Assembly: GCA_013822425.1 (NCBI GenBank)
Contig: PNKL01000018.1
Location: forward strand, 1 to 50,392
Direction of reading: 5' to 3'
DNA from: Gemmatimonas sp.
GTDB taxonomy: Bacteria > Gemmatimonadota > Gemmatimonadetes > Gemmatimonadales > Gemmatimonadaceae
DNA: 50,392 nucleotides
The notes under the pieces were generated by a model. That model made no database searches. It saw nothing but the letters and a program-made list of their open reading frames with translations, and was not told the DNA's origin. Shown here one piece after another: positions 4,689 to 49,344 of this stretch. Each line of letters starts with the position of its first letter. Within the stretch, counting starts at the first letter, position 1. A program made the translations under genes and the position numbers.

Positions 4689-4695
4689 CTTCGCG

Positions 4696-4710
4696 TTAAG
4701 CGAATCTTAA
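4696..4710 (+). promoter_or_regulatory. Candidate OmpR-family operator: TTAA direct repeat at 11-bp spacing
   Basis: GTTAAG and CTTAAT half-sites place TTAA at 4696-4699 and 4707-4710, exactly 11 bp apart, one helical turn, as for PhoB/OmpR-type regulators. It ends 12 bp before the proposed -35 of tonB, a position suited to activation. TTAA is rare in this GC-rich DNA. Confidence 0.5.
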
Positions 4711-4721
4711 TGTTCCCGTGG

Positions 4722-4750
4722 TTACTCCCTTCATCCACGTGCCGTAGAAT
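4722..4750 (+). promoter_or_regulatory. Candidate sigma-70 type promoter for tonB-exbBD
   Basis: TTACTC (4722-4727) and TAGAAT (4745-4750) are separated by 17 bp, about 54 nt before the tonB GTG. The -10 matches consensus at 5 of 6; the -35 is weak, consistent with activator dependence on the direct repeat just upstream. Confidence 0.5.
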
Positions 4751-4803
4751 CACTTGCACGAACCGCCGTAACCGTTTCACCGCAGCCACACACGGGGTGC
4801 GTA

Positions 4804-7390: not shown

Positions 7391-8185
7391 GTGACCGCCC
7401 CTCGCCCTCGTCGCCCGCTGCGCCCGCCCGTCGGGCTTCCCATCCGTGAGGACGGGAAGCTGCGTGGTATCGCGGCGTCGATTCTCCTGCACGCCATCCT
7501 GATCTTCCTGCTGGCGGGTCCCATCTGGATGCGTGACACGCTCATCGCGGTGCGCGAGGGGGCAGGCGGTCCGGGGCCAGCGGGTGGCGGCGGCGGCGGG
7601 ACCCGCGGCACTGGCGGCGTGCTGCAGGAGCGCGTGCGGTTCATTCGGGTAGCGCCGGCGCCGGCCGCGAAGACGGAGGTGCCGGTGATCCAGCCGGTCA
7701 TCCCGCCGCCCCAGCCGCAGCCCAAGGTCGAGCCGACCCCCACACCGCCGGCAGCGCCGCCTCAGGCGGAGAACAAGGACGCCAGCCTCGTGGCGGGCGT
7801 CGGGGGAGGAACCGGCAATGACGGCAGCGCGGGCTCCGGGCCGGGCTCGGGTGGCGGGGTAGGCTCGGGCGTCGGGACGGGGCGCGGTTCGGGAATCGGC
7901 CCGGGGACCGGTGGCGGCACGGGCAAGGTCTACCCGCCCACGCCGACGAACCTGGTCATCCTGCCCATACCGGTGCCGGCCAAGGTCCGCCCATACAAGC
8001 TGGTCGCCTTCTTCGACGTGGACGAACGCGGCAACACCACGCTGATCTCCTTCAACCCGTCGAAGGACGCGGGGTACAACCGGAAGATCCGTGAGATGCT
8101 GCTCGAGTTCCGCTTCCGTCCCGCCGTGCGCGCCGACGGCACGCCGGTGCGAGATACTACTTGGATCTCGGCGGAAGCGCCGTAG
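7391..8185 (+). CDS. TonB-like periplasmic energy-transducer protein, Pro/Gly-rich
   Basis: A 264-residue protein with TonB layout: cytoplasmic basic head (RPRRPLRPP), one membrane anchor about 26-47 (IAASILLHAILIFLLAGPIWM), a long Pro-rich then Gly/Ser-rich spacer (about 55-178), and a C-terminal domain of about 85 residues with VAFFDVDERGNTTLISF and LEFRFRPAVRADGTPV, like the TonB C-terminal fold with its F-R-PA signature. The spacer is low complexity, so homology rests on the ends. GTG is the only sensible start before the anchor. It follows the exbD pair by 179 bp, beyond a hairpin, so may be transcribed separately. It could instead be an AgmX/PglI-like or TolA-like protein. Confidence 0.75.
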   Translation: MTAPRPRRPLRPPVGLPIREDGKLRGIAASILLHAILIFLLAGPIWMRDTLIAVREGAGGPGPAGGGGGGTRGTGGVLQERVRFIRVAPAPAAKTEVPVIQPVIPPPQPQPKVEPTPTPPAAPPQAENKDASLVAGVGGGTGNDGSAGSGPGSGGGVGSGVGTGRGSGIGPGTGGGTGKVYPPTPTNLVILPIPVPAKVRPYKLVAFFDVDERGNTTLISFNPSKDAGYNRKIREMLLEFRFRPAVRADGTPVRDTTWISAEAP

Positions 8186-8189
8186 AATA

Positions 8190-8244
8190 GAGAGACAACA
8201 GAGAGACAACAGAGAAACAACAGAGAGACAACAGAGAGACAACA
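8190..8244. repeat. Left arm of inverted 11-mer arrays (GAGAGACAACA x5)
   Basis: Five head-to-tail 11-bp units at 8190-8200, 8201-8211, 8212-8222 (GAGAAACAACA variant), 8223-8233 and 8234-8244, beginning 5 nt after the TonB-like stop. They are the reverse complement of the array at 8299-8375. Confidence 0.97.
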
Positions 8245-8298
8245 GAGGGTGGCCCGCGGTGGCCACCCTTCGTGCTTTGTCCGGCGCGCCTGACCCTC

Positions 8299-8375
8299 TG
8301 TTGTCTTTCTGTTGTTTCTCTGTTGTCTCTCTGTTGTTTCTCTGTTGTCTCTCTGTTGTCTCTCTGTTGTCTCTC
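8299..8375. repeat. Right arm of inverted 11-mer arrays (TGTTGTCTCTC x7)
   Basis: Seven consecutive 11-bp units from 8299 to 8375 with single-base variants (TGTTGTCTTTC, TGTTGTTTCTC) that partly correspond to the variant in the left arm. About 54 bp of unique DNA, itself with a GGGTGG...CCACCC inverted repeat, separates the arms. A transcript could fold into a stem of about 55 bp. Confidence 0.97.
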
Positions 8376-8426
8376 TGCTACCTTAGCCGGGTTCTCCAGG
8401 GCTTTACCCGCTATCCGAGGCACAGC

Positions 8427-9914
<1,488 letters not shown>

Positions 9915-37726: not shown

Positions 37727-38517
37727 TCCGCCGCCGCACCGTCCCTCTCGCCCTCGCCGCGCTCGCCTCGGTCGGCGTCGCCTGCATGGAGTCGACGAGT
37801 CCTTCGTCCGTGCCGTACGGCTTTGTCACGATGGTCGCGCAGAGGTCACTTACCGGATACACCGCCTCGCCGGTCGGGACGTTCTTTGGAGCCAGCGGCC
37901 TGGGCGTTCCCACGGCCGTGTCGCCCTGGGACTCCTGTCGGCTGCAGACGTACTCGCGCGCCACGGTGGGTCTCGGCGAGATCTACCCCAGCATTGGCGC
38001 GGGGCCGGCCATCCAGCTCATGGTCTCTGGACGCACCGACTCGATCTTTCCGGGCGCGGTGGGACGCGAGGTGCAGTACCGCTTGCGCACCGCGAGCGTC
38101 CCGTACGTGCCGGGTGACTCGGTGCGCGTCGTGATCCCCGGCGACGCCGACGGGTACCCCGCCATCACGTTCAAGGCCAAGACCGCGGAAGTGCTGACCG
38201 TGACGGACTTTGAAACGCCGACCTCCGGGACGCGGCTCGACGTGCGATGGAGTCCCGGACACGACCTGAACAACACGGTGGCCTTCGCGTTCCGCTACGG
38301 CGCCCTCAACGCCGACACGCTGAATACGCAGGTCTCCTGCCAGTTCCGGGACGACGGTGCGGACTCGGTGCCGGCGAAGTACATAGGGGCGTGGGCACAG
38401 GCCAGGATCAGGACGTGGGTGGTGTCGAGGGTGCGCACGTACGTCTCGCCGGTGGCGCGCAACGGGTACTTCGATTTCATCTCCACCTTCGACGTGCCCA
38501 CGCCGCTGTCTCCGTAA
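37723..38517 (+). CDS. Predicted lipoprotein, unknown function
   Basis: A 264-residue predicted lipoprotein. Signal RRRTVPLALAALASVGVAC with Cys about 21. The mature part is beta-rich with conserved-looking SPWDSCRLQTY, VEYRLR-type strands and VSCQFRDDG; two mature cysteines could form a disulfide. No family recognised. ATG overlaps the previous stop by 4 nt. The stop codon is inside the first unit of the 16-bp repeat, so the C-terminal VPTPLSP may be repeat-affected. Confidence 0.7.
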   Translation: MIRRRTVPLALAALASVGVACMESTSPSSVPYGFVTMVAQRSLTGYTASPVGTFFGASGLGVPTAVSPWDSCRLQTYSRATVGLGEIYPSIGAGPAIQLMVSGRTDSIFPGAVGREVQYRLRTASVPYVPGDSVRVVIPGDADGYPAITFKAKTAEVLTVTDFETPTSGTRLDVRWSPGHDLNNTVAFAFRYGALNADTLNTQVSCQFRDDGADSVPAKYIGAWAQARIRTWVVSRVRTYVSPVARNGYFDFISTFDVPTPLSP

Positions 38518-38591
38518 GCGACCGACACCGTCAGCGACCGACACCGTAAGCGACCGACACCGTAAGCGACCGACACCGTAAGCGACCGACA
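38512..38591. repeat. Tandem array of a 16-bp unit (CCGTAAGCGACCGACA x5)
   Basis: Five exact-length units at 38512, 38528 (one change, TCAG), 38544, 38560 and 38576. The first covers the stop codon of the lipoprotein gene. No intervening spacers of different sequence, so this is not a CRISPR array. Confidence 0.97.
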
Positions 38592-38688
38592 CTTCCTGAC
38601 CGTCATTCCGGGCGGTAATCTCTCCCCATGCGCATTGACTCTCGGCTGGTGCAGCAGCACGTCCGGTCTCTCAGCCGCCGCTAGCGTG

Positions 38689-39261: not shown

Positions 39262-39277
39262 CGCGGGTGCGGACGGT

Positions 39278-39396
39278 GGTGCAGGGACAGGGGGCAGAGT
39301 ATGGTGCAGGGGAAGGGTGCAGAGGGTGGTGCAGGAGAAGGGTGCAGAGTGTGGTGCAGGGACAGGGGGCGGAGTATGGTGCAGGGGCAGGGCACG
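39278..39396. repeat. Tandem array of a 25-bp unit (GGTGCAGGGA...), 4.75 copies
   Basis: Units at 39278-39302, 39303-39327, 39328-39352, 39353-39377 and a partial copy 39378-39396. Internal similarity of the two halves (GGTGCAG-) suggests an older 12-13-bp unit. Strongly purine-biased on the + strand. It lies between the hypothetical gene and the tRNA terminator. Confidence 0.95.
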
Positions 39397-39426
39397 AAAA
39401 AGGGCGACGCCTCAAGGCGCCGCCCT
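39397..39426 (-). terminator. Intrinsic terminator of tRNA-Leu
   Basis: Reading leftward, AGGGCGGCGCC, loop TTGA, then GGCGTCGCCCT followed by TTTTT (39401-39397). One mismatch in the stem. It lies about 50 nt after the tRNA 3' end, in the right orientation. Confidence 0.8.
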
Positions 39427-39466
39427 CTGTCGTATTCTGTCGTATTCTGTCGTACTCTGTTCTTTT
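39427..39466. repeat. 10-bp tandem repeat (CTGTCGTATT x3) between tRNA-Leu and its terminator
   Basis: CTGTCGTATT at 39427 and 39437, CTGTCGTACT at 39447, and a degenerate CTGTTCTTTT at 39457. It occupies the tRNA 3' trailer. Confidence 0.85.
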
Positions 39467-39477
39467 CTGCCCTTAAG

Positions 39478-45760: not shown

Positions 45761-46393
45761 ATGCGCTATACAGGTCCCAGCTGCCGGCAGTGCCGGCGTG
45801 AAGGCACCAAGCTGTTCCTCAAGGGCACGAAGTGCTTCACCGAGAAGTGCCCCGTCGAGCGCCGGCCGTTCCCGCCGGGCCAGCACGGGCAGAACACGTC
45901 GCGCCGCCGGAAGGTGTCGGAGTACGCGAAGCAGCTGCGCGAGAAACAGAAGATCAAGCGCATGTACGGCGTGAGCGAGCGGCAGTTCCGCAATACCTTC
46001 GAAAAGGTGTCGTCGCTGCCGGGCATCACGGGCCACAACCTGCTGGCCGCGCTCGAGAGCCGTCTGGACAACATGGTGTACCGCATGGGCTTTGCCGCCA
46101 GCCGCAAGGCGGCGCGTCAGCTCATCTGCCACCGTCACGTCGAGATCAACGGAAAGACGGTGGACATCCCGTCGTTCCAGGTGCAGCCCGGGCAGGAGAT
46201 TCGCGTCCGGGAGCACGCGCGGACCAACGTCGGCGTGCAGGCCTCGCTCGAACAGGCCGCCCGCGGCCAGGTGCCGAGCTGGCTGGCGGTGGACAAGGAC
46301 TCGTTCAGCGGTCGCATGCTGGAGCGTCCGCAGCGCGCCTCCATCCCGATCGCCGCGCAGGAGCAGCTGGTCGTGGAGTTGTATTCGAAGTAG
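45761..46393 (+). CDS. rpsD: 30S ribosomal protein S4
   Basis: Primary 16S rRNA-binding assembly protein and, in many bacteria, translational repressor of the alpha operon; 210 residues. RYTGPSCRQCRREGTKLFLKG has zinc-type cysteines (C-x2-C; a further C in KCFTEKCPVE), i.e. a zinc-binding S4. S4 RNA-binding domain: LDNMVYRMGFAASRKAARQL and GVEINGKTV-type HVEINGKTVDIPS. GGAGG precedes the ATG. Followed by a heptamer inverted-repeat region before rpoA. Confidence 0.98.
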   Translation: MRYTGPSCRQCRREGTKLFLKGTKCFTEKCPVERRPFPPGQHGQNTSRRRKVSEYAKQLREKQKIKRMYGVSERQFRNTFEKVSSLPGITGHNLLAALESRLDNMVYRMGFAASRKAARQLICHRHVEINGKTVDIPSFQVQPGQEIRVREHARTNVGVQASLEQAARGQVPSWLAVDKDSFSGRMLERPQRASIPIAAQEQLVVELYSK

Positions 46394-46471
46394 AGGGTAG
46401 CGGGTAGATGGCAGAAGGTAGATGTCAACCATCTATCATCCACCACCTACCATCTGCCTTCTGGTCTACCC
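46394..46471. repeat. Inverted heptamer arrays between rpsD and rpoA
   Basis: Directly after the rpsD stop: AGGGTAG, CGGGTAG, ATGGCAG, AAGGTAG (46394-46421), 8 nt, then CATCTAT, CATCCAC, CACCTAC, CATCTGC, CTTCTGG, TCTACCC (46430-46471). The first group is roughly the reverse complement of the second, with a 7-bp period throughout, so RNA here can fold into an imperfect hairpin. Confidence 0.85.
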
Positions 46472-46566
46472 TGACTATCACACGGGCCTGCCGCGCGTCA
46501 GGGGCGAGGCAGGGCGTAGACGGCGCCGCGGGCGTCGCCTGACCACACCACGGATCTCACGGACGA

Positions 46567-48275: not shown

Positions 48276-49344
<1,069 letters not shown>

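Follow-up and report, generated by a model that had tools for sequence, protein, structure and literature searches.

Inverted pairs of 11-bp repeat arrays at gene ends in Gemmatimonas as candidate shoulders of two-way termination elements

Bidirectional Rho-independent terminators consist of a purine-rich shoulder, a GC stem and a U-rich shoulder, a design that is reverse-complement symmetric. DNA uptake sequences are short, genome-specific words enriched at terminators in inverted pairs, and REP/BIME elements are dispersed intergenic repeats of alternating orientation that form hairpins and often lie at gene ends. Closest to the sequences described here are tandem arrays of two heptamers, GGGAATC in Xanthomonas and GGGGA(C/T)T in Nostoc, which are dispersed and mostly intergenic; four units are commonest, a preference that the authors ascribed to G-quadruplexes, array length varies between species while position is usually kept, and Xanthomonas has 70-75 convergent inverted pairs per genome (PMC4692102, Rehm et al., 2015). 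Starts or stops of Xanthomonas transcripts are more frequent at these G4-type repeats (PMC4692102). TAACTGA direct repeats, found in Beggiatoaceae, Cyanobacteria and Bacteroidetes and suspected of a post-transcriptional role, are a further case of many intergenic sets of short direct repeats that keep a fixed relation to neighbouring genes (PMC4679880).

The array pair considered here lies in a contig of Gemmatimonas sp. (PNKL01000018.1 of assembly GCA_013822425.1), of which positions 1 to 50,392 were analysed, hereafter the window. A preliminary description had given it as five units, about 54 bp and seven reverse-complement units, starting 5 nt after one stop codon and ending about 50 nt before the next start. 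This anatomy stands (Table 1): five GAGAGACAACA units fill 8190-8244, 4 nt past the stop, and continue as a partial unit; a core of 54 nt (8245-8298) follows, then seven inverted units at 8299-8375, which leave 51 nt to the downstream ATG. TRF scores the left array at 111 and the right array, taken as 7.5 copies, at 143. The unit is mirror-symmetric, not palindromic, and has no run of G. Variant units had been claimed in both arms and were found there, GAGAAACAACA once on the left and twice on the right, GAAAGACAACA once on the right; from outer to inner end the variants read G G A G G in the left arm and G G G A G A a in the right. The proposed flanks, a TonB-like gene and a permease, hold fully for the permease; the upstream gene has no Pfam match, though it stands behind genes for TonB_C, ExbB, ExbD and ExbD. 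Elsewhere in the window, a 118-nt gap before the TonB gene (4689-4803) hardly changes in length among nine species of the genus and is strongly conserved in them.

Table 1. The array pair, its core and its flanking genes (positions in the window)
Feature	Position	Strand	Remarks
Upstream gene, TonB-like protein	7391..8185	+	Orthologs in nearly all relatives; stop TAG at 8183-8185
5' array, five GAGAGACAACA units and a partial unit	8190..8247	+	Sense strand purine-rich, T-free
GC-rich hairpin, terminator-like on both strands	8245..8270	+	-19.3 kcal/mol, z -2.6
T-containing tail CGTGCTTTGT behind the hairpin	8271..8280	+	
GACCCTC, mirror of GAGGGT at the inner end of the left array	8292..8298	+	
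3' array, seven inverted units (TRF extent)	8296..8377	-	Pyrimidine-rich (U/C) on the + strand
Downstream gene, amino acid permease	8427..9914	+	AA_permease_2, PF13520, E 4e-56

Folded as a single strand, positions 8180-8440 reach -158.7 kcal/mol, where shuffles average -81.7 (z = -15). In the + strand RNA the two arrays are predicted to pair in a stem of about 60 bp, in keeping with the stem of up to 55 bp proposed beforehand, and neither array is predicted to form a structure alone. The core has the form of an intrinsic bidirectional terminator, a GC stem-loop followed by a T-rich tract on both strands, and yields two terminator-like calls over both strands, against 0.6 expected; its tail UGUUGUCUCUC forms only a moderate U-tract and, for a rut site, is poor in C. 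A search of Rfam gave nothing above the gathering score; the microRNA matches below it are of the sort that long hairpins commonly attract. The foldable stem, together with a core hairpin that resembles a terminator on both strands, makes a role at transcript ends plausible, as had been suggested.

The locus is not a one-off. The genome-wide search for the 11-mer that the preliminary description called for, run with a two-unit word and up to three mismatches, found 181 forward and 156 reverse overlapping matches in the 3.57-Mb source genome, from which we estimate roughly 90 array arms; a reversed-pattern search is invalid as a control because the unit is mirror-symmetric. In an unselected 344 kb, all 35 exact units lay inside arrays and none was isolated (0.11 expected), which rules out a DNA-uptake-like signal: unlike uptake words, the 11-bp unit always stands in tandem arrays, and several units coexist. 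The arrays also sit at the ends of contigs of the source metagenome-assembled genome (MAG), namely the end of C2 and the starts of C97, C100 and C127; contigs that end within arrays indicate that arrays break the assembly, and long ones are thus probably under-counted.

Among ten other genomes of the genus, six have at least 66 matches each and four have none or one; in 30 genomes of other genera the two-unit word is absent. An exact scan of 84,980 species matched almost only MAGs of Gemmatimonadota, several of which are named for groundwater or lake-depth samples, and the source bacterium is a freshwater or groundwater member of that phylum. Single contigs binned as Acidobacteria and as Planctomycetota (L101 and L128) contain the 22-mer too. 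L101 comes from the same groundwater as an array-rich Gemmatimonadota MAG and bears an ortholog of an array-bearing gene, which makes misbinning likely.

Arrays of this unit keep a narrow place. On the sense strand of 41 clusters in the source genome, the array follows the stop codon by at most 14 nt in 40 of 42 arms, most commonly at an offset of -1 to +1, and in other genomes of the genus 72 of 75 sense arms lie within 11 nt of the stop, the loci behind both counts being partly chosen for having exact units. Unselected sequence (1.24 Mb) gives the same picture: 23 of 24 arms are intergenic, and all 14 sense arms lie within 13 nt of a stop. Four units are the mode in unbiased arms (11 of 24; 8 of 11 in the relative G001) and also account for 95 of 174 arms in a pooled, partly selected set. 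The base before the outer end is A in all arms of the source genome, the inner end mostly continues as GA, and in four-unit arms the first unit favours GAGAAACAACA (51 of 95; 61 of 285 among the other units; p 1e-8). Phase-locked ends and ordered unit content favour a defined module over slippage acting independently at each locus. Some arrays stand directly before the next start in operon-like gaps (L055, L136, L138, L142), that of L142 running into the start with no hairpin, and a few antisense arms occur in short same-strand gaps (L129, L132). Gene calls came from a home-made caller based on codon usage, which makes some distances to start codons approximate.

A module with such ends and such a mode, present beside many unrelated genes in an estimated 90 arms per genome, is what a REP/BIME- or MITE-like element that inserts four units at a time next to stops would leave behind. 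We regard mobility of this kind as very improbable: the core sequence differs at every locus, no target duplication was seen, and the arrays are old at orthologous sites. A Y1 transposase (Y1_Tnp, RAYT type) occurs in only two of eleven genomes of the genus and is absent from the array-rich G001, G005 and G008. In contrast to REP/BIME elements, the unit is not palindromic, and most array-rich genomes lack a matching RAYT transposase; as the presence of the transposase is uncorrelated with arrays, REP/RAYT mobility was rejected.

The unit itself varies little. Over 780 units the consensus is GAnArACAACA, with nine of eleven positions at least 98% constant and positions 3 and 5 variable; choosing loci and units by similarity inflates this constancy, though it affects the contrast between positions less. 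A sequence-specific RNA- or DNA-binding protein that reads the consensus after stops, for example in mRNA 3'-end control or ribosome recycling, would explain why two positions are free and the others are not, and the four-unit mode of unbiased arms fits a defined site. Sister units also have a CRRCAGA-like core in common, found in 36 of 102 near-stop arrays where shuffled units gave 7, which points the same way; covering only about a third of these arrays, the core fails as a general explanation. We nevertheless think such a reader quite unlikely. No candidate emerged and Hfq was not detected, the unrelated units AGGATTGCGATTG and GGTGCAGGGGAAG occupy the equivalent place, and loci selected by similarity exaggerate the conservation.

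Place and mode are shared with the Xanthomonas and Nostoc arrays, as are dispersal and strand relative to stop and start codons, and inverted pairs are shared with Xanthomonas. The differences are equally clear: the Gemmatimonas arrays belong to another phylum and have an 11-bp unit free of G-tracts, which places them outside the G4 class; they are phase-locked, start 0-6 nt from the stop, usually enclose a GC hairpin between the arms, and include several unit families that obey one rule of place and strand. TAACTGA repeats differ in lying mostly just upstream of starts, in containing stop codons within the unit, in occurring often as single copies and in almost never forming inverted pairs (PMC4679880). 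Since a unit without G-tracts shows the same four-unit preference, quadruplexes cannot be the general reason for it; that place, mode and pairing are likewise the same without G-tracts suggests a role in ending transcripts or insulating genes.

It is extremely unlikely that a quadruplex, triplex or cruciform is the working form. In its favour stand the mirror symmetry of the unit and the inverted repeat formed by the pair, and the related G-rich arrays have been attributed to G4 (PMC4692102). Two C in eleven nucleotides break a purine triplex, a unit without a G-tract is not expected to form G4, and most clusters are unpaired, so that cruciforms cannot be general.

The rule of place and strand extends beyond the 11-bp unit. 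Tandem arrays of period 6-26 were collected from 706 unselected intergenic gaps of at least 60 nt (two genomes, 1.8 Mb) and oriented by purine content. Same-strand gaps gave 47 arrays with a purine-rich sense strand and 9 of the opposite kind in the 25 nt that follow the stop, and 33 pyrimidine-rich arrays and one of the opposite kind in the 25 nt that precede the next gene; at the two sides of convergent gaps the rule holds by 17:1 and 13:0. Where a gap contains two arrays, the purine array precedes the pyrimidine array 36 times and follows it once, and 27 of 52 such gaps share the unit in inverted form, against 9% between gaps. Post-stop sequence without arrays is unbiased (purine 0.51), and shuffled gaps contain essentially no arrays. 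As the strand rule holds for all unit types, the locus is one case of a general reverse-complement-symmetric layout. This layout of purine array, stem and pyrimidine array parallels the A-tract, stem and U-tract of two-way terminators, from which it differs in having tandem arrays of 44-100 nt as shoulders in place of A- and U-tracts.

The window contains further arrays of other units. A purine-rich GGTGCAGGGGAAG-type array, a hairpin and a TCTGTCGTAT array follow one another at 39277-39469, where the last leads the terminator of a tRNA-like gene on the minus strand. Inverted 7-mers of the TAGATGG type lie 3' of a terminator hairpin at 48279-48383 and end at the next start codon; the counterpart in G001 has a pair of a related 7-mer. 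Inverted arrays of 7-mers, again of the TAGATGG type, with a 4-nt loop directly follow the stop of rpsD, which encodes S4 (46390-46470), and the rpsD gaps of G005 and G007 hold an inverted pair of the same or another 7-mer. Some 100 nt between rpsD and rpoA (46457-46566, GTCTACCCTGACTATCACACGGGCCTGCCGCGCGTCAGGGGCGAGGCAGGGCGTAG...) are strongly conserved in five species and have no Rfam match; this stretch is possibly an unannotated leader RNA of rpoA. A 16-mer array, CCGTAAGCGACCGACA, occupies 38512-38592, its first unit including the stop codon of the preceding gene, and is absent from orthologs, and a 14-mer array, CGATCGGTCACACT, lies between divergent genes at 613-676.

Comparison of relatives, suggested beforehand as a check on unit number, revealed variation at this very locus. 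The five and seven units seen here correspond to about four units on the left and no right array in G001; G010 has about five units on the left and an unrelated 7-mer array on the right. In G005 the gap contains an inverted pair of a different, GGTGCAG-type unit, in G003 a 10-mer array, in G002 a short GTGCAG stretch and in G004, further on, a degenerate inverted pair of ACGGATT-like units; no clear array was found in the same gap of G006, G007 or G009. In G023, which belongs to another genus, GATGGGC 7-mers form an inverted pair on either side of a hairpin. Among six further genes followed through the genus, picked only for bearing an array in the source genome, most orthologs have an array right after the stop, made of the 11-bp unit or of a sister unit (GAGAACGACA, GAGTACGACA, GAGAGAAAGCA, GAGAACAACA or GGGAGAC). 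Behind the arrays of the alanine dehydrogenase (AlaDH) and glycine cleavage genes, the hairpin is homologous among orthologs. Place and general form thus persist while unit number and sequence change.

Such turnover at orthologous sites is what one would expect if the arrays were a by-product of mutation, built without function by slippage and by template switching primed from hairpins, in any DNA beside a hairpin that can vary freely. Pairs of opposite orientation had been thought much less common than single arrays, a view not borne out by the source genome, where an inverted partner accompanies 9 of 10 convergent clusters and 8 of 30 in same-strand gaps, at partly selected loci, nor by the numbers reported for Xanthomonas. 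Each arm in a convergent gap goes with its own gene; where the genes share a strand, as at this locus, the second arm is assignable to no called gene. Across all 45 convergent inverted pairs studied, the arms share slightly more variants than random arms, weakly so for inner units (p 0.02). Where the core is at most 35 nt, inner units are more alike than between loci (p 0.003-0.005; 0.016-0.07 in the source genome alone), and no excess sharing of inner variants was found with cores above 35 nt. The cut at 35 nt was set after seeing the data, as the only one tried, and some pairs are orthologs, which leaves the short-core signal of copying suggestive.

The preliminary idea that a pair arises by copying across a hairpin therefore finds some backing at short cores and none at longer ones, the pair in question among them, whose 54-nt core and non-matching arms bear no sign of such copying. 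Inner variants common to short-core pairs fit quasipalindrome template switching suggestively (PMC7202029), and one pair in G005 (L294) resembles a conversion tract that ends within the third unit. As a full account, however, a functionless by-product seems unlikely to us, though it deserves serious weight: many unrelated genes bear one and the same unit in arrays whose ends are phase-locked, orientation at the stop codon is strictly sense, the strand rule holds 36:1, first units are preferentially GAGAAACAACA, and arrays persist at orthologous stops.

Our leading explanation, to which we give an even chance, is that the locus is one copy of a genus-wide repeat forming the shoulders of two-way elements for termination and insulation; such elements would most likely let transcription end cleanly between neighbouring genes. 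Because the second array runs the opposite way, either strand reads as purine array, hairpin and pyrimidine array. The 5' array, 44-60 nt long, would act as an unstructured spacer between the ribosome at the stop codon and the hairpin, holding the stopping ribosome clear so that the hairpin can fold. In E. coli, a terminator placed a few nucleotides past a stop codon is almost inactive, being covered by the ribosome, and regains activity with distance (PMC4824070). In Gemmatimonas, a hairpin lies within 110 nt of 17 of 18 unbiased 3' ends with the 11-bp unit (family F11), and the median hairpin starts 50 nt after the stop where an array is present, against 16 nt at array-less ends. A hairpin of -15 kcal/mol or better starts at the inner end of 47% of arms, against 20% of shuffles; by the same fold test, about half of the arms have no strong hairpin there.

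The 3' array may supply a U/C-rich tail behind the hairpin, serving as a U-tract or in Rho loading, and may also pair with the 5' array in a long stem, barring read-through and shielding the RNA end. Slippage would alter unit number, and in same-strand gaps with short cores, template switching across the hairpin may partly keep the second arm similar. Rho is encoded in the source genome, its main copy on contig C20; a second Rho-like protein (G000:C24:17736-18803) scores 424.8 bits, below the TIGR00767 cut-off. Fully paired arms would hide a rut site, a point against Rho loading. A spacer, moreover, needs no conserved sequence, yet nine of the eleven unit positions are nearly invariant; this counts against the explanation, as do the arms that have no strong hairpin, the arrays in operon-like gaps, the antisense arms in short same-strand gaps and the moderate U-tract.

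The 11-bp arrays are real, genus-wide and conserved in place, and short arrays at gene ends are already known from other phyla. A broader reading, which we offer tentatively and think somewhat improbable, is that all array types are interchangeable shoulders of two-way terminators, hence the purine-rich outward strand at gene edges; the G4 arrays of Xanthomonas and Nostoc would then be the same kind of element, and each lineage's unit would be kept or re-spread by a trans-acting factor or a copying process. If this is true, the four-unit preference of the Xanthomonas and Nostoc arrays has nothing to do with quadruplexes, and a purine-rich outward strand is a rule, not stated before, that applies generally to bacterial genomes with many short tandem arrays. 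A conserved place combined with a changing unit offers a natural experiment on the origin, spread and replacement of non-coding repeats.
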